Origin: Sediminimonas qiaohouensis DSM 21189
GTDB taxonomy: Bacteria > Pseudomonadota > Alphaproteobacteria > Rhodobacterales > Rhodobacteraceae
Assembly (NCBI RefSeq): GCF_000423645.1
Contig: NZ_AUIJ01000002.1
Span: 62,001-126,000 of the forward strand
DNA: 64,000 bases
Direction: 5' to 3'
Both the position numbers and the translations under genes were made by a program. Shown here one piece after another: positions 4,447 to 20,052 of this stretch; within the stretch, counting starts at the first letter, position 1, and every line of letters begins with the position of its first letter. Below the pieces are notes generated by a model. The model was not told the DNA's origin, made no database searches, and saw only the letters and a program-made list of their open reading frames with translations.

Positions 4447-5047
4447 AAGCAAGATCAACGACCCCGGCCCCAAGGCTGACGACGCAAGCAAACCCGCCGC
4501 GTCCGAAGCCACCCAAAGTGCCGCGCAGAGCAAGCCTGCCGAACCCAAGAGCAGCAGCCCCGCCAAGCCCAAGCCGCCGGCGTCGACCCTGTCCTCGGAT
4601 CTGCATATCAGCGGCAACATCAAGACCAGTGGCGATGTCCAGGTCGAAGGCACCGTCGAAGGCGATATTCGCGCACACCTGCTGACGGTCGGCGAATCCG
4701 CCACCATCAAGGGCGAGATCGTCGCCGATGACGTGGTCATCAACGGTCGCATCGTGGGCCGTGTGCGCGGCCTCAAGGTGCGCCTGACCTCCACCGCGCG
4801 GGTCGAAGGGGATATCATCCACAAGACCATCGCGATCGAATCCGGCGCCCATTTCGAAGGCTCGGTTCAGCGGCAGGATGACCCGCTCACGCCCCAGAAC
4901 AAGGGCGCGGCCACACCGCAACCGCAGCGCCAGCAGCAAACGCAGCAACAGCAGCAACGCAGCCAGCAACAGCAGCCCGCAGCGGCCAAACCCGCCAGCA
5001 GTGAGGCCGCCGCCGCCTCGCAGGGCAAGGGCAACACCGGCTCCTGA
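4436..5047 (+). CDS. Bactofilin (polymer-forming cytoskeletal protein)
   Basis: A 203-residue protein with a central bactofilin beta-helix (about residues 50-145), seen as short repeats such as SGDVQVEGTVEGDI and ATIKGEIVADDVVI. The N-terminus is rich in Lys/Ala/Pro and the C-terminal tail is low-complexity, dominated by Gln. Bactofilins assemble into membrane-associated filaments without nucleotide and often recruit cell-wall enzymes. The start codon lies inside the end of the M23 peptidase gene, so the two are probably translationally coupled and act together in local cell-wall remodelling. A hairpin terminator follows the stop codon. Confidence 0.93.
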   Translation: MFSRSKINDPGPKADDASKPAASEATQSAAQSKPAEPKSSSPAKPKPPASTLSSDLHISGNIKTSGDVQVEGTVEGDIRAHLLTVGESATIKGEIVADDVVINGRIVGRVRGLKVRLTSTARVEGDIIHKTIAIESGAHFEGSVQRQDDPLTPQNKGAATPQPQRQQQTQQQQQRSQQQQPAAAKPASSEAAAASQGKGNTGS

Positions 5048-5071
5048 GCCGCACCGCAATCCTGAACGCCG

Positions 5072-5102
5072 AAGGGCGCCGCACCACCGCGGCGCCCTTT
5101 GT
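5072..5102 (+). terminator. Rho-independent terminator after bactofilin
   Basis: An inverted repeat GGGCGCCGC / GCGGCGCCC with a 6-base loop (5074-5097) is followed by a short T-run. It begins about 25 bases after the bactofilin stop codon and is placed to end the M23-bactofilin transcript. Confidence 0.75.
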
Positions 5103-5181
5103 CATTGGCGGGGGTGTGGAGCCAAGCACAAACCAAGCGAGCGCCTGCCCTTGGGGTGACGCCGCAACGACCGAGCTGAAC

Positions 5182-5208
5182 ACTTTATCCCGCCAAATAC
5201 CTCCACCC
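5182..5208 (-). repeat. Degenerate copy of intergenic TATTT-GGC repeat
   Basis: Read on the minus strand, this spacer holds GGAGGTATTTGG followed by CGGGATAAAG. It resembles the better copies at 9005-9112, 28968-29030 and 58942-58976. It is the weakest member and is included because it also lies at the 3' side of a gene, here the HNH endonuclease. Confidence 0.35.
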
Positions 5209-5253
5209 TACCGATGGCAGTGCCCGGCCTCCAAAGCGCCAGCCCGCCGGAAC

Positions 5254-5275
5254 AAAAAGGCGCTCGCCCGGCGCC
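5254..5275 (-). terminator. Terminator downstream of HNH endonuclease gene
   Basis: On the minus strand GGCGC, a 7-base loop and GCGCC are followed by five T residues. It lies about 50 bases after the stop codon of the HNH gene, a suitable position for its terminator. Confidence 0.5.
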
Positions 5276-5322
5276 CTGCGGGCGCTGTTCGGGCGGGGGC
5301 GCCACCCCCCACCACCAGCCCT

Positions 5323-5907
5323 TCACGCCTCCAACTCGGCATCCCAATACAGGAAATCGATCCAGCTTTCGTGCAGGTGGTTGGGCGGGAACTTGCGCCC
5401 CATGTTGCGCATTTCCTCGGCGCCCGGCGCGCGCGGCGTCTTGCGCAGGTGCAGCCCCGAGCGCCGCAGGCTCCGCGATCCCTTGCGCAGGTTGCACGGC
5501 GCGCAGGCGGCCACCACGTTTTCCCACGTGGTCGTGCCCCCGGCGGCGCGCGGCACCACGTGATCAAAGGTCAGATCGGAGCGCGTGCCGCAGTACTGAC
5601 AGCGAAATTCATCCCGCAGAAAAAGATTGAAGCGCGTGAATGCCACGCGCTTCCTCGGTTTGACGTAATCTCTCAGAACCACCACCGACGGCATTCGTAT
5701 CCGCATGCTCGGGCTTCGCACCACGTGGTCATACTCGGCCACGATATCGACCCGGTCCAGCCACACCGCCTTGACCGCCTCCTGCCAGGGCCACAGCGAT
5801 AGCGGGTAATATGAGAGCGGCCGGTAATCCGCATTCAGCACCAGCGCCGGGTTCTGCTTGAGCCCCGCCGGCTCCCTGACAAAATCGCGCCTGAAGTCTC
5901 CGTCCAT
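5323..5907 (-). CDS. HNH endonuclease family protein
   Basis: A 194-residue protein starting at the ATG at 5907, which has GGGAGAA at good spacing; an upstream in-frame ATG at 6012 would add a non-conserved leader. The C-terminal half is a zinc-stabilised HNH domain: CQYC (103-106), the DH of DHVVP (115-116), Asn 130 and CAPC (135-138). The N-terminal part (NADYRPLSYYPLSLWPWQEAV) is typical of a chromosomal HNH family widespread in alphaproteobacteria. Its cellular substrate is not known. It lies apart from any mobile element and appears to be a core gene rather than a restriction enzyme. Confidence 0.92.
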   Translation of the reverse strand: MDGDFRRDFVREPAGLKQNPALVLNADYRPLSYYPLSLWPWQEAVKAVWLDRVDIVAEYDHVVRSPSMRIRMPSVVVLRDYVKPRKRVAFTRFNLFLRDEFRCQYCGTRSDLTFDHVVPRAAGGTTTWENVVAACAPCNLRKGSRSLRRSGLHLRKTPRAPGAEEMRNMGRKFPPNHLHESWIDFLYWDAELEA

Positions 5908-6079
5908 CTGGCAATTCTCCCTGCCCAGCCTGCCCTGCGATGGCGACGGGGCGGGGGACCGCCCCGGCACATCTAACACTATATATCGCGTTCGCCGTGG
6001 GGCAAGCCCCATGTATCTGCGATCACACCAAGGCAGTAGCGCGCCATTGCAACAGCGCGATGACAGGCGCGGGCGCCGC

Positions 6080-7324
6080 TCAGACCCACTCGCCCTTGCG
6101 GAACACCGGGACGCGGCTGCCGTCCCCTGTCACGCCGTCGATGTCGATCTCGGCCGAGCCGATCATCCAGTCGATATGGATCATGCTCTCGTTGCCGCCC
6201 CGCGCCGCGATCTCTTCGCGGCTGAGGGTATCGCCCCCCTCGAAGCACTTGGAATAGCACTGCCCAAGCGCGATGTGGCAGGCGGCGTTCTCATCGAACA
6301 GCGTGTTGTAAAACAATAGCCCCGATTGCGAGATTGGCGAGGAATGCGGCACCAACGCCACCTCGCCCAGGCGCCGCGCGCCCTCGTCGCTGTCCAGAAC
6401 CTTGTGCAGAACCGCCTCGCCGCGGCTGGCGCTGGCCTCGACGATCCGGCCGGATTCGAATCGCACGGCGATATCCTCGATCAACGTCCCCTGGTACGAA
6501 AGCGGCTTGGTCGCGCTCACATGCCCCTCCACCCGCGCGGCGTGCGGCGTGGTGAACACCTCTTCGCTGGGGATGTTGGGGTTGCACACGATCCCGTTCT
6601 TGGCCAGCGACGCGCCGCCCATCCATTCGTGCCCATCGGCCAGGCCCACGCGCAGATCGGTGCCCGGCCCGGTGAAATGCAACGCCGCGAACCGCTGCGC
6701 ATTCAGCCAATCCGTCCGCGCCCTGAGCCGCGCGTTATGCGCCTGCCAGTTGGCCACGGCATCGGCATCCTCCACGCGCGAAGCCGCGAATATCGCATCG
6801 GCCAGCTTCGCCACCGCCGCCCCCTCGGGCAGGTCCGGGAACACCAGCTGCGCCCACTCCGTGCCCGGCCACGCCACCAGGTTCCAGTTGATGTCGAACC
6901 CGGTGATCCGCTCGCGCGCGGGCTTGTAAGCCTCCGATTGCGCCTTGGACGCGCGCGACACACGCTCGGGATCCTCGTTGGACAGCAGCATCGGGTTGTC
7001 GCCCACCACTCCCAACCGCGCGGTATTGGCGTCGAACGCCTGCGCCATCCCCTCGTAAAGCCACCCCGCCGCGCGGTCGAAGCTTTCGTCGCGGGCATGC
7101 GCGAACCGCGCCAGCGTCACTTGGTCATCCGACAACAGCGGCGTCACCACGCCCGCGCCCGCCTCATACGCATGCACCGCGATGCGCCGCACCAAAGGCG
7201 CCGCCGCGATCGGCGCGGTCAGCAGCAGGTCCTGCCCCTCTTGCAGGTTCAACCCCACCTTCACGGCCACCTCGGCCAAACGGTCCAGCTTGACAGGATC
7301 AATCGGTGCGGTTTCGGTGCTCAT
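6080..7324 (-). CDS. M29 family aminopeptidase (AmpS/AmpT-like)
   Basis: A 414-residue metallo-aminopeptidase of family M29. Recognisable blocks include NLQEGQDLLL near the N-terminus, FTGPGTDLRVGL with EVFTTPH (metal-binding region), and the C-terminal series HIALGQCYSKCFEGG and SMIHIDWMIGS. Members use two divalent metals to remove N-terminal residues from peptides in the cytoplasm. The start at 7324 (MSTETAP) is chosen over upstream in-frame options because family similarity begins there. It is divergent from the aminotransferase at 7605 with a spacer of about 280 bp that should hold both promoters. Confidence 0.93.
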   Translation of the reverse strand: MSTETAPIDPVKLDRLAEVAVKVGLNLQEGQDLLLTAPIAAAPLVRRIAVHAYEAGAGVVTPLLSDDQVTLARFAHARDESFDRAAGWLYEGMAQAFDANTARLGVVGDNPMLLSNEDPERVSRASKAQSEAYKPARERITGFDINWNLVAWPGTEWAQLVFPDLPEGAAVAKLADAIFAASRVEDADAVANWQAHNARLRARTDWLNAQRFAALHFTGPGTDLRVGLADGHEWMGGASLAKNGIVCNPNIPSEEVFTTPHAARVEGHVSATKPLSYQGTLIEDIAVRFESGRIVEASASRGEAVLHKVLDSDEGARRLGEVALVPHSSPISQSGLLFYNTLFDENAACHIALGQCYSKCFEGGDTLSREEIAARGGNESMIHIDWMIGSAEIDIDGVTGDGSRVPVFRKGEWV

Positions 7325-7604
7325 CGTGGCGGCCTCCAAGGGGGGTGATCGGGTCTGGCAGACCATAAGCCGCGCACCAGCAGGGTCAATGGCCCGGCGA
7401 CACATCCTCCCGACGCACCGCCGCGCATGCAGCCACCCGCGCACAAACGATAAGTCCAGATGCCCCCGCCCCGGCCTCCGTGCCGCAAATCCGCGTGACA
7501 AGCCCGCACCAGACCCACACACTGCGGCCAAAACCACCCGGTCCCCGCGCGCGCGCCACGCCACGCGAAGGGGCCAAAGCCACCAAACCCAACAGGAGCC
7601 TACC

Positions 7605-8987
7605 ATGGAACCGCTTTCCAATTCCTCTGCCCAGGTCGATATCTCGACCGCGCTGCACCCCTATACCGACGCCCGCGCGCACGAGGCCCAAGGCCCCGTC
7701 ATCATCGACCGGGGCGACGGCATCCACGTCTACGACCAGGGCGGCAAACGCTATATCGAGGGGCTGGCCGGGCTGTGGTCGGTCGCCGTCGGATTCAACC
7801 AGCCGCGACTGCGCGATGCGGCCACCGCCCAGATGGACCGCCTGCCCTATTACCATAGCTTCGCGCACAAGGCGCACGAGCCCTCGATCCGGCTAGGCGA
7901 GAAGCTGGTCGAAATGACGCCGGACAACCTCACGCGCGTGTTTTTCACCAATTCGGGGTCCGAGGCCAATGATACAGTGGTCAAGATGCTGTGGTACATG
8001 AACAACGCCCTCGGCAAGCCAGAGAAGAAAAAGTTCCTCGCCCGCACCAAGGGTTATCACGGCATCACCGTCGCCTCGGGCAGCCTCACGGGCCTGCCCA
8101 ACAACCACCGCGATTTTGACCTGCCGGCGATCCCGGTCACGCACCTGACCTGCCCGCATTTCTACCGCTTCGGCAAGAACGGCGAGAGCGAAGAGGCGTT
8201 CACCGCGCGTCTCCTGGCCGAGCTGGAAGAAGTGATCGCGGCCGAGGGCGCCGACACCATCGCCGGCTTCATCGGCGAGCCGTTGATGGCCGCCGGCGGT
8301 GTGATGCCGCCGCCCGCCGGCTACTGGCCCGGGGTCGAGGCGATTTGCCGCAAACACGATATCAAGCTGATCGCGGATGAGGTGATCAACGGCTTCGGCC
8401 GCCTCGGCAGCGCCTTCGGCGCCACCCATTACGGCTTTACCCCCGATATCATGGTGACCTCGAAACAGCTCACCTCGTCCTACATGCCGCTGGCCGCCAT
8501 TATTTTCTCGGAAGAGATCTATGACGGCATCGCAGACAACTCGCACCGCATCGGCACATTCGGGCATGGCTACACCGCCAGCGGCCACCCCGTCGCCACC
8601 GCCGTGGGGCTGGAAAACCTCAAGATCATCGAAGAGATGGACCTGATCGGCAACGCCGCCCGCCTGGGCCAGGTGCTGCAGTCCGAACTGGCCCAACTCG
8701 CGGATCACCCGCTGGTGGGCGAGGTGCGCGGCGAGGGCCTGATCGCGGGGCTGGAGCTGGTCGCCGACAAGGCCGGCAAGACGCCGTTCGATCCGGTCGG
8801 CAAGCTGGGGCTGGCCGCCTTCAACATCGGCCACGACGAAGGGCTGATCATGCGTAATATCGGCGACACGCTGGCGCTGTGCCCGCCGCTGATCCTGACC
8901 GAGGACGACGCCCGCGAAATTGCCGCCATCATGGCCCGCGTGCTCGACAGGACACAGGACTGGGCAAAGGACCAGGGCTTGCGCTGA
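7605..8987 (+). CDS. Class-III (omega) aminotransferase
   Basis: A 460-residue PLP-dependent aminotransferase of the subgroup that includes taurine-pyruvate and polyamine-pyruvate enzymes. Visible features are the phosphate-binding NSGSEAND, the DEVINGFGR block holding the PLP-interacting Asp, and the Schiff-base lysine K287 in SKQLTSSYMP. The start has AGGAG seven bases upstream. Substrate cannot be assigned from sequence; the amine donor may be an omega-amino acid or a diamine. It stands alone, with an intergenic repeat following its stop codon. Confidence 0.93.
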   Translation: MEPLSNSSAQVDISTALHPYTDARAHEAQGPVIIDRGDGIHVYDQGGKRYIEGLAGLWSVAVGFNQPRLRDAATAQMDRLPYYHSFAHKAHEPSIRLGEKLVEMTPDNLTRVFFTNSGSEANDTVVKMLWYMNNALGKPEKKKFLARTKGYHGITVASGSLTGLPNNHRDFDLPAIPVTHLTCPHFYRFGKNGESEEAFTARLLAELEEVIAAEGADTIAGFIGEPLMAAGGVMPPPAGYWPGVEAICRKHDIKLIADEVINGFGRLGSAFGATHYGFTPDIMVTSKQLTSSYMPLAAIIFSEEIYDGIADNSHRIGTFGHGYTASGHPVATAVGLENLKIIEEMDLIGNAARLGQVLQSELAQLADHPLVGEVRGEGLIAGLELVADKAGKTPFDPVGKLGLAAFNIGHDEGLIMRNIGDTLALCPPLILTEDDAREIAAIMARVLDRTQDWAKDQGLR

Positions 8988-9004
8988 CGCGCCCGCCCGG
9001 CCCG

Positions 9005-9053
9005 CCGGGGGCGCTGCCCCCGGACCCCCGGGATATTTTGGGCCAGAAGAAAC
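9005..9053 (+). repeat. Intergenic hairpin plus GGGATATTTTGGGCCAGAAG element
   Basis: A hairpin (CCGGGGGC / GCCCCCGG, 9005-9023) is followed by CCCCCGGGATATTTTGG and GCCAGAAGAAA. It starts 18 bases after the aminotransferase stop codon. The same element occurs inverted near 28968-29030. I recognise this motif as common in Rhodobacterales gene-end spacers; it probably works in transcription termination or mRNA 3'-end stability. Confidence 0.7.
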
Positions 9054-9075
9054 AGGGGCAAGGCACGTACCGGCC

Positions 9076-9112
9076 CTTCATCTTGCCCAAAATACTCCCG
9101 CCGGAGGCCTCC
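9076..9112 (-). repeat. Intergenic element GGCGGGAGTATTTTGGGCAAG, inverted
   Basis: Read on the minus strand: GCCTCCGGCGGGAGTATTTT followed by GGGCAAGATGAAG. It lies just past the stop codon of the deacylase at 9130, mirroring the element that follows the convergent aminotransferase. A near-identical copy lies at 58942-58976. Confidence 0.7.
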
Positions 9113-9129
9113 GCACTATCAGCCCGCGC

Positions 9130-10437
9130 TCAGGCGTCTTCGAGCCCGCACCACTCGGCGATGAACAGTGCTGTGGTCTGCGTCAGGCGCCGCAGGCTTT
9201 CCAGATCGACGCGCTCATTGAAGCCGTGGATCGCCTCGGCGCGCGGGCCGTAGACCAGCGCCGGCGTGTCAGCATAAAGCCCGAAAAAGCGCGCGTCCGT
9301 GGTCGCCGTAATCGCCGCGGTGTCCAACGCCCGGCCCGTCACCCGCTCATGCGCGCCGCCCAAGGCACCGATGGCGTCGCGCGCGGCGGTCGAGCGGTCT
9401 TGCGACAGAGCATAGCCCTCGGCCATGAAGCCGTGATAGACGATCTCGGGCTGGTTGTTGCGCAGGAAATCGCTGTCTTGCGCGGCGGCGCGCAGCACCT
9501 CCTCGATCTCGCGGCGTGCCTCGGCCAGGTTCTGACCAGGGAACACGCCCATGCGCACGTCAAAGACGCACCACGCCGGCACCGAGCTGGTCCAGTCGCC
9601 GCCTTGAATGCGCCCGATATTGAGGTTCAGCGGGTGATCCACATGCCCGTAATCGCCGTGCCGCCGCTCCGCCCCGTTCCAGCGCTCCTCCATCGCGTGC
9701 AGCGCCGTGATCAGGGGCATCGCCGCCTCGATCGCGTTGGCGCCGCTGCCGGCATAGGCGACATGCGCGGGCACCCCCTTCAGGTGCACCTGGAACCAGA
9801 TCACGCCCACCTGCGCGGTGACCAGTGTCTCGTTGAACGGCTCGGGGATCAGCACCGCATCAGCGCGGTAGCCGCGTTGCAGGCAGGCCAGCGCGCCGTT
9901 GCCGGTGCATTCCTCCTCGACCACCGATTGCACATGCACATCCGCCCCCGGCGCCAGGCCGATCTCGCGCAGGGCGTCCAGCGCAAAGATGTTCGCCGCC
10001 AGCCCCGCCTTCATGTCGCCGGCGCCGCGCCCGTACATCCAGCCGCCATCGACGCGCGGCGAAAACGGCGGACTGTCCCACATGTCGTGCGGGCCCTCGG
10101 GGACCACATCGATATGCCCGTTGAGGATCAGCGACCGGCCCGTGCGGCGGCGGCTGGCATGGGTGCCCACCACGTTGACCGCGTCCTCGTAATCGCCGAT
10201 CACCGGCGAGAACCCCGGCATGTCGCGGATATCGTCCAGGTCGATCTGCCAGCGATCCACCGACAGGCCCCGGTCGCCCATCTCGCGCGCCATGAAATCT
10301 TGCGCCGACTGCTCATTTCCGCGGGTCGAGGGATGCGCCGTCAGCTCCGACAGGAACGCCACCTCGCGGTCGAACAGCGCATCCACCGCGGCGCGGATAC
10401 GGGGTTCAACCTCGGGCTCCATTTCTGGCGTCGTCAT
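9130..10437 (-). CDS. ArgE/DapE-type (M20) deacylase
   Basis: A 435-residue M20 metallohydrolase that probably removes an acyl group from an amino compound. Motifs follow the family order: LNGHIDVVPEG (metal His and catalytic Asp), YGRGAGDMKAG (bridging Asp), SVVEEECTGNGA (catalytic and metal Glu), and a late His in EAIHGFNER. The ATG at 10437 follows GAGGGAGG. It is the last gene of a four-gene minus-strand operon with a CoA-transferase pair and a class-III aminotransferase, the same gene set as Bacillus subtilis yodQ-yodR-yodS-yodT, although the substrate there is also uncertain. Confidence 0.92.
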   Translation of the reverse strand: MTTPEMEPEVEPRIRAAVDALFDREVAFLSELTAHPSTRGNEQSAQDFMAREMGDRGLSVDRWQIDLDDIRDMPGFSPVIGDYEDAVNVVGTHASRRRTGRSLILNGHIDVVPEGPHDMWDSPPFSPRVDGGWMYGRGAGDMKAGLAANIFALDALREIGLAPGADVHVQSVVEEECTGNGALACLQRGYRADAVLIPEPFNETLVTAQVGVIWFQVHLKGVPAHVAYAGSGANAIEAAMPLITALHAMEERWNGAERRHGDYGHVDHPLNLNIGRIQGGDWTSSVPAWCVFDVRMGVFPGQNLAEARREIEEVLRAAAQDSDFLRNNQPEIVYHGFMAEGYALSQDRSTAARDAIGALGGAHERVTGRALDTAAITATTDARFFGLYADTPALVYGPRAEAIHGFNERVDLESLRRLTQTTALFIAEWCGLEDA

Positions 10438-10462
10438 CGCGTGCCTCCCTCTCGCTTGTCGT

Positions 10463-11122
10463 CTAGAACACCGGCAGCGGCGCATCCGGCACCTCCAACG
10501 GCGCGCCGGTTGCCTCGACCACCTCGCGCACGCTGACGCCCTCGGCCAGCTCCCGCAAGACCACCCCCCGCGGCGTGACATCGCACACCGCCATGTCGGT
10601 ATAGATCCGGCTGACGCTGCCCGACGCCGTCAATGGCAGCGTGCAGCGATCGACGATCTTGGGGTTGCCGGCCTTGTCCACATGCGCGGTGATCGCGCCA
10701 ACCCGACGCGCCCGCTGTGCCAGCTCGATCGCGCCGCCCGCACCGGGCGAGAACCGCCCCGGGATGATCCAGTTCGCCAGATCCCCGTTCGCCGCCACCT
10801 CGAACGCCCCCAGAAGCGTCAAGTCCAGCCGCCCGGACCGCACTATCGCGAACGACACCGCACTGTCGAAATACGCGCCCCCCGGCAGGGTCGAGACATA
10901 GCTGCCGCCTGCGTCGATCAGGTTGCGATCTTCCTGCCCCGCAGGCATGACCGGCCCGACGCCGGAAATGCCGTTTTCCGAGTGCAGGCACACCGGCATC
11001 CCGGCGGGCAGATGCCCCACCACCTGCGTCGGCAGCCCGATGCCAAGGTTCACGCACATCCCCGGCACGATATCGGCCGCTGCCCGTGCCAACATGCGGG
11101 TTTTAGCGTTTGACGACACCAT
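10463..11122 (-). CDS. 3-oxoacid-type CoA-transferase, subunit B
   Basis: The 219-residue beta subunit of a family I CoA-transferase. HSENGISGVGP carries the catalytic glutamate, which forms the covalent glutamyl-CoA thioester, and GAYFDSAVSFAIVRSGRLDLTLLG follows as in ScoB/AtoA. It works as a heteromer with the subunit A encoded just upstream, and its start overlaps the end of that gene by 20 bases. In this operon it probably activates or deactivates a beta-keto or beta-amino acid intermediate rather than acetoacetate, but that is inferred from gene company. Confidence 0.93.
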   Translation of the reverse strand: MVSSNAKTRMLARAAADIVPGMCVNLGIGLPTQVVGHLPAGMPVCLHSENGISGVGPVMPAGQEDRNLIDAGGSYVSTLPGGAYFDSAVSFAIVRSGRLDLTLLGAFEVAANGDLANWIIPGRFSPGAGGAIELAQRARRVGAITAHVDKAGNPKIVDRCTLPLTASGSVSRIYTDMAVCDVTPRGVVLRELAEGVSVREVVEATGAPLEVPDAPLPVF

Positions 11123-11795
11123 ACACCTCCGGCAGTTCCGACATCTCGATCACGTGATCCACGAACGGGCCGGGCGTGTGCACCTCGTCGGGGCCAAGCG
11201 CGCCAAGGGGTTCTACCCGCTCGGCCTCGGCGATCACGCAGCGCGCGGCCATCGCGGCCAGCGGGTTGAAGTTGCGCGCGCTGGCCCGGTAGCACAGGTT
11301 GCCGAACGGATCGGCCCGCTCGGCATGGATCAATGCCACATCGGCATATAGCGCCGGCTCGAACATGCCCTCGCCGGCGGCGGTGGTGATCCGCTGCTTG
11401 CCCCGCGCAAGCAGTGTGTCCATCCCGATATCGGTGACGAACCCCATCACCCCTGCCCCCGCCGCGCGGATACGTTCGGCCAGAATTCCCTGCGCGTTGA
11501 ACTCCACGTCAAGGCTGCCGTCGTTCATCATCGACACCGCCCGCGGATTGAGTCCGATATGCGAGGTGATCAACCGCTTGACCAGCCCCGCTTGCAACAG
11601 CCAATCCACCCCCATGCCGGTCTCGTTGGCGTCGTTCTTGATGATCGTCAGATCGCGCGCGCCATGCGCCACCAGCGCCTCGATCAAGCAAAACGGCGTG
11701 CCCGGCACCCCAAAGCCGCCCAGTATCACGCTGGCCCCGTCGCGGATGGTGGCGATGGCGTCCTCCATGGCGCATGTCTTGTCCGGCAGGCTCAT
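11103..11795 (-). CDS. 3-oxoacid-type CoA-transferase, subunit A
   Basis: A 230-residue alpha subunit of a family I CoA-transferase (ScoA/AtoD-like). The glycine-rich CoA-binding stretch GGFGVPGTPFCLIEAL lies near residue 27, and EFNAQGILAERIRAAGAGV and ALIHAERADPFGN are typical family blocks. It overlaps the aminotransferase stop upstream by four bases and the subunit B gene downstream by 20, so all three are probably translated together. Confidence 0.93.
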   Translation of the reverse strand: MSLPDKTCAMEDAIATIRDGASVILGGFGVPGTPFCLIEALVAHGARDLTIIKNDANETGMGVDWLLQAGLVKRLITSHIGLNPRAVSMMNDGSLDVEFNAQGILAERIRAAGAGVMGFVTDIGMDTLLARGKQRITTAAGEGMFEPALYADVALIHAERADPFGNLCYRASARNFNPLAAMAARCVIAEAERVEPLGALGPDEVHTPGPFVDHVIEMSELPEVYGVVKR

Positions 11796-13144
11796 GGCGC
11801 CGACACCGGCAGCGACAGCTCGGCCGCCAACGCCCCAAGGCTGTCGTCCAGAAGGCCGATGATTTCGTCGATCTGCTCGGGTGTCACAATGAGGGGCGGA
11901 CAGACAAGGAAATGATCCCCCTCGCGCCCGCCGCGCGTGCGCCGCGAATAGATGATCAACCCCCGATCATACGCCAGCTCGACCAGCCGGTTAAACGCGT
12001 TCATCCCCGGCGGCAGCGGCGCCATGCTGCCCCGATCCGCGACCAGCTCAAACGCCAGCAAAAGCCCCTTGCCGCGCACGTCCCCGATGAACGGGTAGCG
12101 CGCCATCAGCGCCTCCAACCCGCGCTTGAGAAGCGCGCCCATCTCGGCGGCGTTCCCGATCAGGCCGGCGCGCTCGATCTCGTCCAGAACCGCCAGCCCT
12201 GCGGCACAGGCCAGCGGGTTGCCCGCATAGGTAAACCCGTTGGCAAAGCCCCCCGCGCCGGTCACCTCGTCCACGATCCCGCCGCGCGCCACCACCGCGC
12301 CAAGCGGCGCGTACCCGGCGGCAAAGCCTTTTGACAGGGTCACGATATCGGGTAGGATTCCCCAATGCTCGGCGGCGACGAAGGTGCCGGTGCGCCCGGC
12401 GCCGCTCATGACCTCGTCGTAGATCAGAAGGATACCGAACTCATCGCAGATCTCGCGGATACGCGCGTAGTAGCTGTCAGGCGCCACCAGCGCCCCCGTC
12501 GAGGCGCCGCCGACCGGCTCCATGATGAAGGCCAGAACGCTGTCGGGGCCCTGCGCCAGTATCTCCTCGCGCAGCATCTCGGCATATTTGAGGCCCCGCT
12601 CCTCGTCACTCAGATTGTCGCGGTCCAGGTAACAGGTCGGCGCGGGGATCTTGGGCATGTCGCGCATCATCGGCATGAACGGATCGCTCAGCGGCGCATA
12701 CCCCGTCAGCGCCAGTGCGCCCAGGGTGCAGCCGTGATAGGATGGAAACCGCGATATCACTTTCCAGCGCCCCGCCTCGCCGCGCGACAGGGCGTGCTGC
12801 CGCGCCAGCTTGATCGCGCTTTCCACTGCCTCGGACCCGCCCGAGACGAAAAACACCCGGTCCAGATCGCCGGGCATCCGAGCCGCCGTGCGCCGCGCCA
12901 GATCCTCGGCCGGTTGGTTGCGGAAATGCAGGCGGTAGCCAAAGGTCGAGCGCTCCATCTGCTCGCGCATCGCGGCCAGTACGTTGGGATTGGAATGACC
13001 GATATTGCTGACCATCGCACCGCTGGAGCCGTCGAGATATCGCCGCCCCTCGGTGTCATAAAGGTAAATACCCTCCGCGCGGTCCAGCATCGGACGCGCG
13101 ATATCGGTCAGGGAAAACAGGTTCGATGGGGGTTGGGTCGTCAT
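11792..13144 (-). CDS. Class-III aminotransferase of CoA-transferase operon
   Basis: A PLP-dependent aminotransferase of about 450 residues, the first gene of the operon. Motifs: VSGGSEAVESAIK (phosphate binding), IYDEVMSGAGRTG (PLP Asp) and K272 in LSKGFAAGYAPLG (Schiff base). The ATG at 13144 is preferred because AGGTG lies at about 10 bases; the ATG at 13153 is only three bases from it. Together with the CoA-transferase and deacylase it suggests catabolism of an amino or diamino acid through transamination and CoA activation. Substrate is not known. It is divergent from a GMC oxidoreductase gene. Confidence 0.92.
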   Translation of the reverse strand: MTTQPPSNLFSLTDIARPMLDRAEGIYLYDTEGRRYLDGSSGAMVSNIGHSNPNVLAAMREQMERSTFGYRLHFRNQPAEDLARRTAARMPGDLDRVFFVSGGSEAVESAIKLARQHALSRGEAGRWKVISRFPSYHGCTLGALALTGYAPLSDPFMPMMRDMPKIPAPTCYLDRDNLSDEERGLKYAEMLREEILAQGPDSVLAFIMEPVGGASTGALVAPDSYYARIREICDEFGILLIYDEVMSGAGRTGTFVAAEHWGILPDIVTLSKGFAAGYAPLGAVVARGGIVDEVTGAGGFANGFTYAGNPLACAAGLAVLDEIERAGLIGNAAEMGALLKRGLEALMARYPFIGDVRGKGLLLAFELVADRGSMAPLPPGMNAFNRLVELAYDRGLIIYSRRTRGGREGDHFLVCPPLIVTPEQIDEIIGLLDDSLGALAAELSLPVSAP

Positions 13145-13255
13145 TGGGGGCATTCACCTGCGGTCAAGATCTCGTCGCCGGGCGCACGCGCCGCGCGCAC
13201 CCCTTTCCCCGAGGATAAAGCGCAGCGGGGACCATCATGCAAATAAATACCAAAG

Positions 13256-13266
13256 ATAGTGACTAT
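13256..13266. promoter_or_regulatory. Palindrome ATAGTGACTAT in divergent spacer
   Basis: A perfect 11-base palindrome inside an AT-rich island of an otherwise GC-rich 229-bp spacer between the divergent aminotransferase operon and GMC oxidoreductase. Flanking ATGC and GCAT boxes widen the symmetry slightly. It could be an operator shared by both directions; no regulator gene lies beside it, so the binding protein is unknown. Confidence 0.4.
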
Positions 13267-13373
13267 AGCATGGCTCTATGGTCCTTTGCCGCAGGGAAGT
13301 CGCGGGTGAAATGGCATTTTCACTTGAAAATCAAGGCCCCGGGCTGCACGCTTGGCTGTGGGAGCAGCAGATC

Positions 13374-14984
13374 ATGACCTTCGATTACGTCATCATAGGC
13401 GCCGGCTCTGCTGGCTGCGTCCTCGCCGCCCGCCTGAGCGAGGACCCCACCACCACCGTGTGCCTTCTCGAAGCCGGCGGCGAGGGGCGGTCGATCCTCT
13501 TTCGCGCCCCGGCCGCCACCGTCGCGGTCCTGCCCGGGCGGCCCAAGATGGGCAACTGGGCCTTTGAAACGGTCCCCCAATCCGGCCTCGGCGGCCGTCG
13601 CGGATACCAGCCCCGAGGCAAGGCCCTCGGTGGCTCCAGCGCGATCAATGCGATGCTGTATATCCGCGGCCACTGCGCCGACTACGACGGCTGGGCCGAT
13701 ATGGGCTGCCCCGGCTGGGACTGGAACAGCGTGCTGCCCTACTTCAAGCGTGCCCAGAACAACGCCGAGGGGGGCGGCGCGTATCACGGCACCGATGGCC
13801 CCCTGCACGTCACGCCACAGTTCAGCCCCCGGCCCCTCACCCACGCCTTCGTCGAGGCCGCCAGCCAGATGCAGCACCCCCTGAGCGACGATTTCAACCG
13901 CGGCGAAACCGAGGGCGTCGGCCTCTACCCGGTGACGCAGTTCCACGACCCCGCTCGCCGGGGCGAACGATGCTCGGCCGCCGCCGCCTACCTGCACCCG
14001 GTGATGGACCGACCCAACCTGACCGTCATCACCCGCGCCCGCGCCGCCCGGATACAGGTCGAGGATGGCCGCGCGACCGGCGTCACCTACCTGCGACGCG
14101 GCCGCACCTGCTTTGCCTCCGCCCGCGCCGAGGTGCTCCTTTGCGGCGGCGCCTTCAACTCGCCCCAGATCCTGCAACTCTCGGGCATCGGCGCCCCCGA
14201 TGACATCACCCCCTACGGCATCGAGATGACCCACGAGTTGCCCGGCGTGGGCCGCAACCTACAGGATCACCTCGATTTCATCCTCGCGTGGAAAACCCGC
14301 GATACCGACAATTTCGGCATCAGCCCCGCAGCGGGCCGCAACCTGTGGCGCCATATTCGGCGCTGGCGTCGCGACGGCACCGGTATGATCACCACCCCCT
14401 TCGCCGAGGGCGCCGGGTTCCTGAAAACCGATCCCGGACTTGCGCGGCCCGACATCCAGCTTCACTTCGTGATCTCCGTCGTCGATGACCACGCCCGCAC
14501 CCTGCATCGCGGGCACGGCTTTTCCTGCCACGTCTGCGCCCTGCACCCCCATTCGCGCGGCACGGTGACGCTTAATTCCGCCGATCCCACCGCGCCGCCG
14601 CGGATCGATCCCGCCTACCTGACCGATACACGTGACATGGAAACGATGATCCGCGGTGCCAGGATGATGCGCCAGATCATGCAGGCCCCGGCGATGAAAC
14701 CCTACCGCGAGACCGAGCTGTTCGGCACCCATGACGACATGAGCGATGCCGACTGGGCCAAACATATCCGCGCCCGTGCCGACACCATATATCACCCGGT
14801 CGGCACCTGCCGCATGGGCACCGATGACATGGCCGTTGTGGACCCCGAATTGCGGGTGCGCGGCATAGGCGGGCTGCGGGTGGTGGATGCCTCGGTGATG
14901 CCCACGCTGACCGGCGGTAACACCAACGCGCCGACCATCATGATCGCCGAGAAAGCCGCCGACATGATCCGCGCCGCCCCTTGA
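13374..14984 (+). CDS. GMC family FAD oxidoreductase (choline dehydrogenase-like)
   Basis: A 536-residue flavoprotein of the glucose-methanol-choline family, which oxidises alcohols to aldehydes. An N-terminal dinucleotide fold ([19 protein letters not shown]), the [15 protein letters not shown] signature, the second GMC signature [16 protein letters not shown], and catalytic H474 (HPVGTCRMG) with N518 (GGNTNAPT) are all present. The ATG at 13374 has GGGAG upstream. The annotation 'choline dehydrogenase' is too specific, since the gene has no betaine aldehyde dehydrogenase or BetI neighbour. It is followed 59 bases later by a Rid-family gene and probably shares its transcript. Confidence 0.93.
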
Positions 14985-15043
14985 CGCGCCGTGACCGCGC
15001 GCCGATACCGGGCCGGACAAACCCCGCAACAGGAGCGCCCAAA

Positions 15044-15391
15044 ATGATCGAACGTCACCACGTCGGCCAACGCATGAGCCAGATCGTCAAGCATAACGGC
15101 ACCATCTACCTCGCCGGCCAGGTCGGTCACGGCGACACCGTCGCCGAGCAGACTCGCGATTGCCTCGCGAAGGTGGACAAGCTGCTGGAAGAAGCGGGCA
15201 GCGACCGCGAGCATATCCTGCAGGCGATCATCTGGATGGCCGACATGGACCGCGACTTTGCCGAGATGAACACCATCTGGGATGCCTGGGCCCCCGAGGG
15301 CCACGCCCCCGCCCGAGCCGCCGGCGAAGCGAAGCTTGCAACCCCCGACTACCTGGTCGAAGTGATCGTGACCGCGGCCGAGAAAGCCTGA
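15044..15391 (+). CDS. RidA/YjgF-family protein
   Basis: A 115-residue Rid-family protein with [21 protein letters not shown] and [20 protein letters not shown], the latter holding the arginine that binds the substrate carboxylate. RidA enzymes hydrolyse reactive enamines and imines released by PLP enzymes and amine oxidases, so its place after an oxidoreductase and near aminotransferases is sensible. The ATG at 15044 follows AGGAG; an earlier in-frame start lacks family similarity. Subgroup and exact imine are not determined. Confidence 0.9.
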
Positions 15392-15465
15392 TTTCCGGCA
15401 AGCTCCCGGCAGATTTCCCTGTCATCCTTGGTGATTGAGCCGCGCGGCGCCCACCGTCGCGGCCG

Positions 15466-16413
15466 CTACTTGCGCCGTGATCGCGTATCGGACGCGACCG
15501 CGGCGCCGGTCAACTGACCCGCGGCATGGATCACGTGCCCCGCATGCCCCACGATCAACGGATCGGAGGGCGTGGCGACCTCAAGGTCCTTGCCAGGGTA
15601 ATCCAGCGTCGACAGGAAATGCCGCATGCAATTGAGGCGCGCACGTTTCTTGTCCTTCGACTTGATGATCGTCCACGGCGCGTCGGCGGTATCGGTATAG
15701 AAGAAATTGGCCTCTTTCGCGTCGGTATACGCGTCCCATTTCTCAAGGCTGGCCAGGTCTATGGGGCTCAGCTTCCAACGCTTGAGCGGGTCGCTTTCGC
15801 GCGCCCGGAACCGGCGCACCTGTTCCTCTCGCGTGACCGAGAACCAGTACTTGTAAAGCCGGATACCCGAGCGCACCAGCATCCGCTCCAGCTCGGGCGC
15901 CTGGCGCATGAACTCAAGGTACTCCGTCGCCGAGCAGAACCCCATGACCCGCTCAACCCCCGCGCGGTTGTACCACGAGCGGTCGTAGAACACCATTTCG
16001 CCGCTGGTTGGCAGGTGCTCGATATAGCGCTGGAAATACCATTGGCCCTTTTCCCGTTCGGATGGCTTGTTCAGCGCCACAACGCGCGCAAAGCGGGGGT
16101 TGAGATGCTCGGTAAAGCGCTTGATCGTGCCACCCTTGCCGGCCGCGTCGCGCCCCTCGAACAGAAGAACGAACTTCTGCCCGCTGTCCTGCGCCCACGC
16201 CTGCACTTTCAGCAACTCCGCCTGAAGCTTGGCCTTCTCGGCCTCGTAGGGCTTGCGCGCCATCGGGTGCGCGTAGGGATAGCGCCCGGTCTCGAACGCG
16301 ATGCGAACTTCGTCCGCCGGTGTCTTGGGGAATGTATCCACGTCCCCACCGCCTTGCGGAGCGTGCCGCGTCGATGTGTGCCTGTGGGGTTGACCCTCGT
16401 AAGTATCGCTCAT
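15466..16413 (-). CDS. ppk2: Polyphosphate kinase 2 (PPK2)
   Basis: A 315-residue PPK2-family kinase that transfers phosphate between polyphosphate and nucleoside di- or monophosphates. It has a P-loop GRDAAGKGG (87-95), the lid region GQWYFQRYIEHLP, and the Walker B-like YDRSWYNR (143-150), and ends with the usual SKDKKRARLNCMRHFL region. The start at 16413 follows a GAGGAG site. It lies downstream of ndk on the same strand, separated by a terminator-like hairpin, so the two are probably transcribed separately although their substrates overlap. Confidence 0.95.
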   Translation of the reverse strand: MSDTYEGQPHRHTSTRHAPQGGGDVDTFPKTPADEVRIAFETGRYPYAHPMARKPYEAEKAKLQAELLKVQAWAQDSGQKFVLLFEGRDAAGKGGTIKRFTEHLNPRFARVVALNKPSEREKGQWYFQRYIEHLPTSGEMVFYDRSWYNRAGVERVMGFCSATEYLEFMRQAPELERMLVRSGIRLYKYWFSVTREEQVRRFRARESDPLKRWKLSPIDLASLEKWDAYTDAKEANFFYTDTADAPWTIIKSKDKKRARLNCMRHFLSTLDYPGKDLEVATPSDPLIVGHAGHVIHAAGQLTGAAVASDTRSRRK

Positions 16414-16494
16414 GAATTGCTCCTCTCTCATTCGATGCGATTCTACACCCAATACCGCCGCGCCGCCTTGTGGCAGGTCAACTCTCGCCAACGC

Positions 16495-16521
16495 AAAAGG
16501 CCGCCCCCAATGGGGACGGCC
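16495..16521 (-). terminator. Rho-independent terminator after ndk
   Basis: On the minus strand a 10-base stem (GGCCGTCCCC / GGGGGCGGCC, one mismatch) with a 3-base loop is followed by TTTT. It lies 27 bases after the ndk stop and before ppk2. Confidence 0.7.
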
Positions 16522-16547
16522 CGCATCGCATGCAATGGTCCGCGCGA

Positions 16548-16970
16548 TTAGCCGACCAGTTCAAGCCCCGAGAAGAAGTAGGCGATTTCTTCTTTCGCCG
16601 TGTCCTCGCCATCCGAGCCGTGAACCGAGTTTTCGCCGATCGACAGGGCGTAGTCCTTGCGGATCGTGCCTTCGTCCGCTTCGGCGGGGTTGGTCGCGCC
16701 CATCACTTCGCGGTTCTTGGCAATGGCGTCTTCCCCTTCGAGAACCTGCACGACGATCGGCTCGGACGCCATGAACTCGCACAGTTCGTCATAGAACGGG
16801 CGTTCCTTGTGGACGGCATAGAACACGCCGGCCTGCGCCTTGGTCAACTGGATGCGCTTTTGCGCGATGATGCGCAGGCCCGCGGCCTCCAGCTTGGCGT
16901 TGATGGCGCCGGTCAGGTTGCGCTTGGTCGCGTCGGGTTTGATGATGCTGAAGGTCCGTTGGATGGCCAT
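16548..16970 (-). CDS. ndk: Nucleoside diphosphate kinase
   Basis: A 140-residue Ndk that moves the gamma-phosphate of ATP to other nucleoside diphosphates through a phosphohistidine, here H117 in [17 protein letters not shown] at the N-terminus and [16 protein letters not shown] are typical, and the length matches the bacterial family. The ATG at 16970 has AGGAAA upstream. It reads as a single-gene transcript ended by the hairpin at 16495-16521. Confidence 0.98.
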
Positions 16971-17168
16971 TTTTCGGTTTCCTTTGAAGGGTTGAATAGA
17001 CTGGCGCGGCCTTAGCACGCGGGCGTGACGGGGAAAAGGGGGCACCGCGCCAAAGGCGAGACAAGGTGCGACAAACGACCCCTTGTCATTTCCGATTATT
17101 TTGGTCAGCTTTCGCCGAGCAACCTTACCGGCAGCCAGGAAACAAACACAGACACACGGGAAACAGTC

Positions 17169-17456
17169 ATGAAACCAGTCAAAGCCATCGCGCTTGCCGC
17201 CCTTCTCGCCGCGCCGCAATTCGTCTCCGCCGAGGCAACGACGCCCATGCCCCTGACCTACGAGGTGTTCGAAGAAGCGATCCCGCATATCGACCTGGAA
17301 ACCTGCCCGTCCGAGATGGCCGGGGATGACCGCTTCTGCCGCGCCGTGGTGCACCACGATGCGATCAACGTCTTCGCGTTCCTCTATGACGCCGACAGCC
17401 CCGCCGTCGCCTACCGCAGCTATCCGGCCGATGGGCTGAATGCGATCCTGGACTAG
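17169..17456 (+). CDS. Small secreted hypothetical protein
   Basis: A 95-residue protein with a clear signal peptide ([21 protein letters not shown]) and cleavage likely near residue 21. The mature part is acidic and has two cysteines, about 12 residues apart, which could form a disulfide in the periplasm. I do not recognise a domain. It lies alone between the divergent ndk and the ABC-F gene. Coding is supported by the signal peptide and sensible codon use. Confidence 0.75.
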
Positions 17457-17501
17457 TAATCCGCATTGACACGGGTGGGGCGCTGGTTCAGTGCTCCGCC
17501 C

Positions 17502-19364
17502 ATGTTACGCATTACCGATCTCAGCTTCTCGATGGAGGGCGCGCCGCTGTTCGACGGCGCCAGCGCAATCATTCCCACCGGCCACAAGGTGGGCGTGGTT
17601 GGCCGCAACGGCACCGGCAAGACCACCCTGTTCAAGTTGATCCGCGGCGAGCTGCACGCCGAAGGCGGCTCCATCACCCTGCCGCCCCGCGCCCGCATCG
17701 GCGGCGTCGCGCAGGAGGTGCCCGGCAACGAGGTGTCGCTGATCGATACCGTTCTGGCCGCCGATACCGAACGCGCCGCCCTGATGGCCGAGGCGGACAC
17801 CGCCACCGACGCCGCCCGCATCGCCGAGATCCAGACCCGCCTTGCCGATATCGATGCCTGGTCCGCCGAGGGCCGCGCCAGCGCGATCTTGCGCGGCCTG
17901 GGCTTTGACGCAGACGAACAGCGCATGCCATGCAGCGCCTTTTCGGGCGGCTGGCGGATGCGTGTCGCGCTGGCGGCTGTGCTGTTCGCGCAGCCCGATC
18001 TGCTGCTGCTGGACGAGCCGACCAACTACCTCGATCTGGAGGGCGCGCTGTGGCTGGAAAACTACCTGCAGCGTTACCCCCATACTGTGCTGATCGTCAG
18101 CCACGATCGCGGCCTTCTGAACCGGGCCGTCGGCGGCATCCTCCACCTGGAGAACCGCAAACTCACCTACTACACCGGCCCCTATGACCAGTTCGCCCGC
18201 CAACGCGCCGAGCAGCGCGCGATTCAGGCCGCCGCCGCGAAAAAGCAAGAGGCCCGCCGCGCGCACCTGCAAGGCTTCGTCGATCGCTTCCGCGCGCAGG
18301 CCAACAAGGCCAAACAGGCGCAAAGCCGGGTCAAGATGCTGGAAAAGATGGAAACCATCCGCGCGCCCGAGGATGCCGCGCGTACCGTTTTCACCTTCCC
18401 CGAGCCCGAGCAGCTTTCGCCGCCCATCCTGATGACCGAAGGGGTCAATGTCGGCTACGACGGCACCACCGTGCTGCGCAATCTCGACCTGCGCATCGAT
18501 CAGGACGACCGCATCGCGCTGTTGGGCAAGAACGGACAGGGCAAAACCACGCTGGCCAAGCTGCTGTCGGGGCGCCTGCCGCCGATGACCGGCAAGCTCC
18601 AGCATTCGGGCAAGCTGAGGATCGGGTTCTTCGCACAGCACCAGGTTGACGAGCTGCGCATCGAGGAAACGCCGCTGCAGCACCTGTTCCGCGAGTGCCC
18701 CGGCGAGGCGCAATCGAAACTGCGGGCGCGGCTGGCGGGCTTTGGCCTTGGCGCCGAGCAGGCGCAGACCCCGGTCGGCAACCTATCGGGCGGGCAAAAG
18801 GCGCGGCTGTCGCTGCTGCTGGCTACCCTGCCCGCGCCGCATCTGCTGATCCTGGACGAGCCGACCAACCACCTTGATATCGAAAGCCGCGAAGCGCTGG
18901 TCGAGGCGCTGACTGCCTATACCGGCGCGGTGATCCTGATCAGCCACGACATGCACTTGCTGTCGATGGTGGCCGACCGGCTGTGGCTGGTCAAGGACGG
19001 CACCGTGCGTCCCTATGACGACGATCTCGAGGCGTATCGCCGGATGCTGCTACAGGCCGACACCCCGGCCAAACCCGCCGCCGCGCGCAAGCCAGAGCAG
19101 CCCAAACGCGCCGGGCGCGACCAGATCCTCGCGCTGCGCGCGGAGCTGCGCAAATGCGAGGACCGGCTGGAGAAACTGGGCGAGATGAGCGAGAAGCTGG
19201 TGGCCAAGCTGGCCGATCCGGCGCTCTACGAGGAGGGGCGCTCGGACGAGGCGGCGGTATGGCAAAAGAAATACGCCGAACTGCGCGAGGCTCAAAGCCG
19301 CGCCGAGGATCTGTGGCTGCGCGCGCAGGACCGCCTGGAGCGCGCCGAGGGTCAGAACGCCTGA
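17502..19364 (+). CDS. ABC-F family ATPase (Uup/YheS-like)
   Basis: A 620-residue soluble protein with two ATP-binding cassettes and no membrane domain. Cassette 1: Walker [10 protein letters not shown], signature [12 protein letters not shown], Walker [13 protein letters not shown]. Cassette 2: Walker [10 protein letters not shown], signature [12 protein letters not shown], Walker [14 protein letters not shown] charged linker lies between them and a coiled-coil C-terminal tail from about residue 540. ABC-F proteins act on ribosomes, or in Uup's case on DNA or ribosome-linked processes. The start at 17502 (MLRITDLSF) matches the family; an ATG 36 bases upstream is less likely. Confidence 0.95.
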
Positions 19365-19437
19365 TCCCGCGCGGCGGTGGCTTTGACATGGGCCGCGCAT
19401 TCGGTACTAATGCGGCTCACGGATCGGAGCACGTGAC

Positions 19438-20052
19438 ATGGACAGCGCATTCCTGATTTCTGCTTTTGTCACGCTCTTCGTGATCATCGATCCCATTGGC
19501 CTGACCCCCATATTCGTCGCGCTGACCCAGGGCATGACCAGCCCACAGCGCCGCGCTATCGCGCTGCGCGCCTGCCTTGTCGGGGCGATCCTGCTGTGCC
19601 TGTTCGCCGCCTTCGGCGAGGCGGTTCTGGGCTTTGTCGGCATCTCGATGCCCGCGTTTCGCATCGCCGGGGGGATCTTGCTGTTCCTGACGGCGCTCGA
19701 CATGCTGTTCGAACGGCGCACCAAGCGGCGCGAGGACCAGGCCGAGGATGATACCCCCGACCCTTCGGTGTTTCCGCTGGCGATCCCGCTGATCGCTGGG
19801 CCGGGCGCGATTGCCTCGATGATCCTGCTGGCGGGGCAGCAGCCGGGGCTGGCGGGGCTGGCTATCGTGATCGGCGTGATGCTGGCGGTGGTGGCGATGC
19901 TGTTCGTGATGTTCCTCGCCGCCGGCCTTGTCGAACGTGCCCTCGGGCGGACCGGCACCAACGTGATCACGCGGCTTTTGGGCATGCTTCTGGCGGCACT
20001 GTCGGTGCAATTCGTGCTGGACGGGCTGCGCGCCTTCGGCTTTGCCGGTTGA
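19438..20052 (+). CDS. MarC family integral membrane protein
   Basis: A 204-residue protein with about six membrane segments, the family opening (FVIIDPIGLTPIFVALT) and the central IPLIAGPGAIASMILL block. MarC proteins were once thought to be antibiotic-resistance factors but their transport function is not established. It starts 74 bases after the ABC-F gene on the same strand. Confidence 0.92.
   Translation: MDSAFLISAFVTLFVIIDPIGLTPIFVALTQGMTSPQRRAIALRACLVGAILLCLFAAFGEAVLGFVGISMPAFRIAGGILLFLTALDMLFERRTKRREDQAEDDTPDPSVFPLAIPLIAGPGAIASMILLAGQQPGLAGLAIVIGVMLAVVAMLFVMFLAAGLVERALGRTGTNVITRLLGMLLAALSVQFVLDGLRAFGFAG

Follow-up and report, generated by a model that had tools for sequence, protein, structure and literature searches.

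A compact operon of four genes occupies positions 13153 to 9130, on the minus strand, of a 64,000-nucleotide stretch of DNA (hereafter the window) from contig NZ_AUIJ01000002.1 of Sediminimonas qiaohouensis DSM 21189, whose genome sequence is 99.97% complete. The four open reading frames (ORFs), all intact, are, in the order in which they are transcribed:

11792..13153, minus strand: class-III aminotransferase (AT), in the position of Bacillus YodT; Aminotran_3 family, 453 amino acids; the start may be 13144
11103..11795, minus strand: 3-oxoacid coenzyme A (CoA)-transferase subunit A, YodS-like; TIGR02429, 208 bits (cut-off 128.5)
10463..11122, minus strand: 3-oxoacid CoA-transferase subunit B, YodR-like; TIGR02428, 255 bits (cut-off 243.55)
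9130..10437, minus strand: M20 N-deacylase of the ArgE/DapE type, in the position of YodQ; NF005306, 641 bits (cut-off 376)

The AT gene overlaps that for subunit A by 4 bp, the genes for subunits A and B overlap by 20 bp, and a gap of 25 bp separates subunit B from the deacylase, which is 435 amino acids long when read from the ATG at 10437 (the listed ORF of 483 amino acids begins further upstream). Both CoA-transferase subunits exceed the cut-offs of their curated models, and SENG is present at residue 48 of subunit B. Likewise, the deacylase exceeds the cut-off for ArgE/DapE membership and carries the M20 motifs NGHIDV (residue 106), GAGDMKAG (138), EEECTGN (174), and AIHGFNE (402), while K275 of the AT lies within SKGF. 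The solved structure closest in sequence to the deacylase is 3pfo (E 4.8e-116), from Rhodopseudomonas, which its depositors themselves call a "putative" acetylornithine deacetylase.

The four genes are kept together as a unit across the Rhodobacterales. When 149 genomes of the order were searched with the window deacylase, 21 of them gave a total of 26 matches (E ≤ 1e-80). All 11 matches with at least 72% identity were flanked by both CoA-transferase genes, whereas none of the 15 paralogues with 60% identity or less had such genes within 1.5 kb on either side, and the five of these that were read over 20 kb had none in that stretch. We also surveyed the best 80 of 162 relatives from named genomes, a sample biased toward close relatives and with several species per genus; the counts rest on tblastn, and the denominators comprise only loci whose contig extends far enough. 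Subunit B (79/79), subunit A (79/79), and the AT (78/78) accompanied the deacylase in every testable locus, in Rhodobacterales and Hyphomicrobiales alike, and many of the hosts are marine by name. Thus, the four genes form a conserved module, their recurrence excluding chance. The earlier note on this DNA, made from the sequence, had held that frequent independent occurrence of each gene would speak against a module; within the deacylase's own clade the genes are never apart. Aminotransferases, CoA-transferases, and M20 hydrolases do belong to large and common families, and YodT finds its best match in this genome in another aminotransferase, on contig C7, but a chance cluster of generic catabolic genes with no shared pathway is, in view of the linkage in both samples, so improbable that we reject it.

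Two further arrangements came to light in these comparisons. At L039:7552-11369 and L040:8695-12487 a paralogous M20 deacylase (54% identical to that of the window) has no CoA-transferase genes and is flanked by a histone deacetylase (HDAC)-family gene (48-50%) and by a relative (64-65%) of a second aminotransferase of the window described below; this may represent a further pathway for acyl amines in the Rhodobacterales. On pSymA of Sinorhizobium meliloti ml56 (L211) the CoA-transferase genes that precede a 68% identical deacylase are annotated in five pieces, which suggests that the module is decaying there.

As proposed in the earlier note, the gene set matches that of yodQ-R-S-T of Bacillus subtilis, all four families being confirmed by profile searches. 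The reversal of gene order that it had described is, however, ruled out. The Bacillus loci examined, NZ_CP035409 of B. subtilis SRCM103612 (L208) and NZ_CP094295 of B. velezensis AP3 (L209), are likewise transcribed in the order aminotransferase, CoA-transferase A, CoA-transferase B, deacylase (T-S-R-Q), followed by ablB (yodP) and kamA. The last gene is annotated in L209 and was located after ablB in L208 by tblastn (70% identity to kamA of L209). The window proteins are 39%, 49%, 45%, and 33% identical to YodT, YodS, YodR, and YodQ, respectively. The note had also considered that the proteins might fall outside the Yod families, and for two of them this is so at the level of the curated models: the AT reaches 429.6 bits with NF005375 (cut-off 535; Bacillus YodT, 786) and the deacylase 309.7 bits with NF005373 (cut-off 428; Bacillus YodQ, 765). 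YodS finds its best match in this genome in the CoA-transferase A of the window (49%; the sole other match, 42%), and YodT scores higher with the aminotransferase on contig C7 (42%, 357.6 bits) than with the AT (39%, 317 bits). In a deacylase tree from which rows with fewer than 330 aligned residues had been dropped (L026), the window protein fell into a clade of 21 rows (support 98/93) that holds the CoA-transferase-linked deacylases included; 14 unlinked paralogues were the next neighbors of this clade, and YodQ lay far outside. Similarly, in AT trees that include 14 of the 80 named loci, YodT sat on a long branch outside the clade of module ATs. The operon is therefore arranged like yod but is a variant rather than a demonstrated ortholog of it, differing also in its surroundings: the Sediminimonas genome lacks an AblB-type yodP and a kamA match and has instead an unlinked importer of the Pot type and a small GNAT, and relatives of the operon have a linked transporter and thiolase. 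The aminotransferase on C7 (L188:11830-13152; NF005685, 766 bits), also of class III, lies near this GNAT on the opposite strand. L208, classed as a B. subtilis plasmid, is linear, 35 kb long, and carries cge and yod genes; these genes are chromosomal in the reference strain, and the record is probably a piece of chromosome. According to PMC6522883, B. subtilis KamA yields β-lysine in vitro, its physiological function being described there as undetermined, and YodT is uncharacterized, a role in biotin metabolism having been speculated.

What surrounds the module in relatives bears on what it does. In the 80-locus survey, an amino-acid ABC transporter was linked to it (ATPase in 70 of 77 loci, permease in 69 of 76, substrate-binding protein [SBP] in 69 of 76), as was a divergent LysR gene (71/73). 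In 54 of 79 loci the deacylase gene was followed, in the same direction, by a thiolase gene 68-82% identical to that of L123, at a distance, match to match, of at most 63 bp in 53 loci and of 160 bp in one. Fifteen of 78 loci had a GNAT gene between the AT and CoA-transferase A genes. No homologue of BKACE (β-keto-acid cleavage enzyme), of the HDAC family, or of DMF-like proteins scored above 80 bits in any of the 80 stretches. As a side observation, 30 of 64 complete loci (L043-L122 flanks) have a creatininase-family gene within the transporter operon and 20 have an M20 amidohydrolase and alanine-racemase-like pair after the operon; the two never co-occur (Fisher p = 7e-8, uncorrected for relatedness).

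Searching more widely with the AT revealed that individual parts of the module are exchangeable. Of 385 genomes of the class Alphaproteobacteria, 26 had a match at E ≤ 1e-140, and we read 16 of these loci, leaving out the window's own locus and nine others. A BKACE stood beside the AT in 10 of the 16 (L192, L193, L195-L200, L203, L205) and a CoA-transferase in three (L201, L202, L204). Deacetylases were of the HDAC family in six loci (L193-L195, L198, L203, L205) and of the M20 family in six (L196, L197, L200-L202, L205), L205 having both kinds; none was seen in L192, L199, L204, L206, or L207. A GNAT accompanied the AT in six (L196-L198, L200-L202). On the AT tree the label of CoA-transferase or BKACE changes at least twice, as forced by supported branches. 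Three annotated plasmids, of Shinella, Phyllobacterium, and Pararhizobium, carry, in this order, AT, BKACE, GNAT, and HDAC-family genes, and in the Shinella locus the AT is immediately preceded by an amino-acid ABC transporter. These ATs belong to the same clade as that of the window, and a GNAT is again present, but the operons use BKACE and HDAC-family deacylation in place of CoA-transferase (plus thiolase) and an M20 enzyme. On plasmids of Sinorhizobium medicae and Rhizobium bangladeshense, an aminotransferase of another subfamily (28-29% identity) follows CoA-transferase, deacylase, thiolase, and GNAT genes. The recurring elements are thus a β-aminotransferase, a means of cleaving a 3-oxo acid, a deacylase, and often an acetyltransferase. 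The one BKACE tested, from L124, exceeds the cut-off of NF053538 but not that of the model for the free-amine enzyme Kce, a result that would suit an uncharged side chain.

The earlier note was right that neither kamA nor yodP adjoins the operon, and this holds for the whole genome as searched. TIGR00238, for the KamA family, had no match in it, and TIGR03827, for AblB, had none in any of the 11 module genomes, the Sediminimonas genome included; the controls, among them B. subtilis, were matched by both models. TIGR00238 exceeded its cut-off in 10 of the 149 genomes of the order, with a mild enrichment among those with the module (3/11 versus 7/138; Fisher p = 0.027). The KamA-family genes of module genomes are not adjacent to the module, and we reject KamA as a required component. 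Two such genes that we examined, one between uvrC and pgsA (L189) and one beside pgsA (L190), pass TIGR03822, a hypothetical equivalog only, so that the aminomutase activity of its members is putative. In two rhizobial records (H108, H113) an aminomutase-like gene of this kind overlaps or adjoins genX/epmA; because of this, modification of elongation factor P is the likelier role for these KamA-family genes. The absence of kamA is equally well explained by import of the substrate, since a transporter is linked to the module in 69 of 76 loci. The lysine fermentation of clostridia and Cloacimonas (KamA, KamDE, Kdd, Kce, and Kal or Kat) shares entry through β-lysine, β-keto acid chemistry, and an acetoacetate-type CoA-transferase with the pathway proposed below. 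It differs in running through the free-amine 3-keto-5-aminohexanoate and, from the Sediminimonas genome, in having KamA; neither does that genome have a match to BKACE (the Kce family) at E 1e-20.

A link to lysine does appear on rhizobial plasmids. In Rhizobium sp. C104, a lysine-2,3-aminomutase-like gene, which scores 556 bits with TIGR03822 (cut-off 396), is separated at its end by 0.4 kb from a following block of CoA-transferase A, CoA-transferase B, deacylase (71% identical to that of the window), thiolase, and GNAT genes. Seven of the 12 plasmid records in the 60-80% band of deacylase identity were listed, and six of these, all rhizobial, carry an aminomutase-like gene at least 79% identical to that of C104 and about 0.4-120 kb away; for the seventh, Rhodobacteraceae M382, none was among the matches listed. 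Five rhizobial plasmids (L212, L247, L248, L249, L250) have aminomutase-like genes near ATP-grasp ligase genes, some with aspartate-semialdehyde dehydrogenase, kinase, or MFS genes nearby; all four ligases tested (from L212, L247, and L249) contain the L-amino acid ligase domain PF18603, and the catabolic block is present on four of the five plasmids (L212, L247, L249, L250). The aminomutase-like and ligase genes are a candidate system for the synthesis and use of β-lysyl peptides.

In the Sediminimonas genome itself the usual amino-acid transporter is not to be found elsewhere, the best match to its SBP being only 33% identical, and we discarded that idea. Contig C7 does carry a block (L188, 5270-10836) of a LysR gene, two permease genes, and genes for a PotD-like binding protein and a PotA-like ATPase, with a GNAT gene following 2 bp on. 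Its permeases and SBP are 74-82% identical to those of blocks that precede AT and BKACE genes in L193, L198, and L203, and 54-68% identical to those of blocks that precede AT, GNAT, CoA-transferase, and deacylase genes in L058 and L117. Of the eight genomes in which the module has no amino-acid transporter linked to it, five had a Pot-type SBP (E ≤ 1e-40), namely the Sediminimonas genome, L045 (a close relative, with an 87% identical AT), L058, L102, and L117 (Fisher p = 0.0056 in comparison with the 23 that have the linked transporter); L043, which was negative, was excluded from the tally as its contig ends inside the operon. We regard the C7 block as a lead, weakly supported, to the operon's missing import and acetylation functions, and its small non-AblB GNAT may substitute for YodP. 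The block is directly preceded by ectB and ectC, for ectoine, and an aspartokinase gene (L188:1974-5153).

From the gene content and order, the conserved linkage, and the partner genes and their substitutions, we infer a pathway as follows. The occurrence of a GNAT and a deacetylase in the same operons points to a second amine that would be masked and then freed. As CoA-transferase plus thiolase, or BKACE, would cleave a 3-oxo acid, the AT that precedes them would make that 3-oxo acid from a 3-amino acid. Among natural β-amino acids with a second amine, β-lysine (3,6-diaminohexanoate) would fit best, because its unmasked 3-oxo product would be expected on chemical grounds to close to a five-membered imine. 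We therefore favor, at about even confidence, the view that the operon encodes the intracellular half of the catabolism of an acetyl-protected β-diamino acid, the substrate being β-lysine or a conjugate that yields it. The LysR-associated polyamine-type ABC transporter encoded on the other contig would import the substrate, and the GNAT at the end of the transporter operon would acetylate the terminal amine, blocking closure of the 6-amino-3-oxo acid to a pyrroline. The AT would then convert the C3 amine to a ketone, giving 6-acetamido-3-oxohexanoate; the CoA-transferase would form its CoA ester; and a thiolase, presumably encoded elsewhere in the genome, would split this into acetyl-CoA and 4-acetamidobutyryl-CoA. 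After release of CoA, the M20 deacylase would liberate 4-aminobutyrate for the 4-aminobutyrate (GABA) shunt, so that acetyl-CoA, acetate, and 4-aminobutyrate would be the end products. The suggestion of the earlier note that the substrate may differ from β-lysine is less favored, given the GNATs and deacetylases that recur nearby and the aminomutase-like gene that precedes the CoA-transferase-deacylase block in C104.

Several observations weigh against this reading. Three of the 16 class-level AT loci (L194, L206, L207) have neither cleavage enzyme; the substrate in the name of NF053538 is 3,5-dioxohexanoate rather than an acetamido acid; and the racemase/amidohydrolase, creatininase-family, and FAD-oxidase neighbors seen in relatives are left unaccounted for. 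As to the C7 block, three of the eight genomes without a linked transporter (L048, L054, L056) lack a Pot-type SBP, two of the 23 that do have such a transporter (L049, L074) encode this SBP as well, and the association falls to p = 0.135 once the three genomes that prompted the idea are removed. The C7 GNAT, moreover, is 36-44% identical to the operon GNATs and below every curated cut-off. Acetylation within the operon is itself far from general: 63 of 78 surveyed loci have no GNAT between the AT and CoA-transferase genes, nor do 8 of the 11 genomes of the order with the module have an operon GNAT, and the best GNAT matches in these genomes are weak (E 5.7e-9 or worse), except for the C7 gene (E 3e-25).

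These 63 loci are what would be expected if the same chemistry acted on an imported substrate that is already acetylated, Nε-acetyl-β-lysine, so that most lineages needed no acetyltransferase. AblA and AblB produce this compound, which serves many methanogens as a major osmolyte (PMC1224877), and the marine names of many hosts would be in keeping with such a source. Set against this are the operon GNATs of the other 15 loci, of 6 of the 16 class-level loci, and of the three plasmid loci with BKACE and HDAC-family genes, as well as the Pot-type importer, which would be better suited to a cationic ligand, and we think a pre-acetylated substrate rather unlikely. To much the same degree we doubt that the substrate is some other β-amino acid, either a diamino acid or a monoamino acid supplied as an N-acyl or peptide conjugate from which the M20 enzyme, acting first, would release it. 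The breadth of the ArgE/DapE family and the activity for which the BKACE model is named would allow this, and the creatininase-family, M20, or DMF-like amidases and the racemase of relatives hint at conjugated or stereoisomeric substrates. It would, however, explain neither why AT and BKACE are accompanied by a GNAT together with a deacetylase of the HDAC or M20 type nor the aminomutase-like gene of C104. Quite improbable, in our judgment, is an inverted order of steps, in which the CoA-transferase would precede the AT and the latter would be an acyl-CoA β-transaminase like Kat of a variant lysine fermentation. Kat is a class-III aminotransferase that requires a thioester of CoA or a mimic of it (PMC3149608), and the AT and CoA-transferase genes do overlap. 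But in 10 of the 16 loci read at the class level BKACE replaces the CoA-transferase, and there the AT should act on the free acid, because a Kce-type BKACE takes a free β-keto acid and acetyl-CoA (PMC4922564, which describes BKACE groups and substrates).

A broader setting for the favored β-lysine pathway may be imagined, one that we hold to be doubtful. Because rhizobial accessory plasmids with the CoA-transferase-deacylase-thiolase-GNAT block also encode aminomutase-like enzymes close to L-amino acid ligases, the module could be part of an opine- or rhizopine-like exchange of β-lysine compounds. Marine Rhodobacterales would then use the same pathway of interchangeable parts, and three alternative amidases (creatininase-type, M20, and DMF-like) would open different conjugates. 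In the literature on yod genes, β-lysine breakdown, and BKACE we recognized no description of the module among open-licence papers, a weak absence; PMC4619459 bears on β-valine.

Three genes next to the operon in the window are tentative partners:

13374..14984, plus strand (ORF from 13278): GMC flavoprotein oxidoreductase, divergent from the operon
15044..15391, plus strand (ORF from 14981): RidA-family imine/enamine hydrolase
7605..8987, plus strand: second class-III aminotransferase, convergent with the deacylase gene; NF004767, 735 bits (cut-off 517)

A GMC gene is likewise divergent from the operon in one of the 80 loci, that of another Sediminimonas (L045), and a relative of the second aminotransferase, which could tentatively be the handler of the 4-aminobutyrate product, follows the deacylase in one of 80 (L043). 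Relatives of RidA share a run of genes with the module AT in 3 of the 16 class-level loci (L193, L194, L205). In L193, L195, L198, L203, and L205, a gene for a protein of 366-383 amino acids resembling flavin adenine dinucleotide (FAD) oxidoreductases follows the HDAC-family gene (only the L198 protein was confirmed as Pfam DAO), and in L193 and L205 a RidA gene lies beyond it; this may be compared with the GMC-RidA pair of the window. An Rfam scan of positions 5000-20000 gave no matches.

Finally, the interchange of CoA-transferase plus thiolase with BKACE, of M20 with HDAC-family deacetylases, and of polar-amino-acid with Pot-type ABC transporters narrows the chemistry to that of an acetyl-protected β-keto acid, which bears on the counterpart in Bacillus as well. 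If the proposed pathway is correct, it would identify bacteria that consume β-lysine compounds, among them an osmolyte of methanogens.

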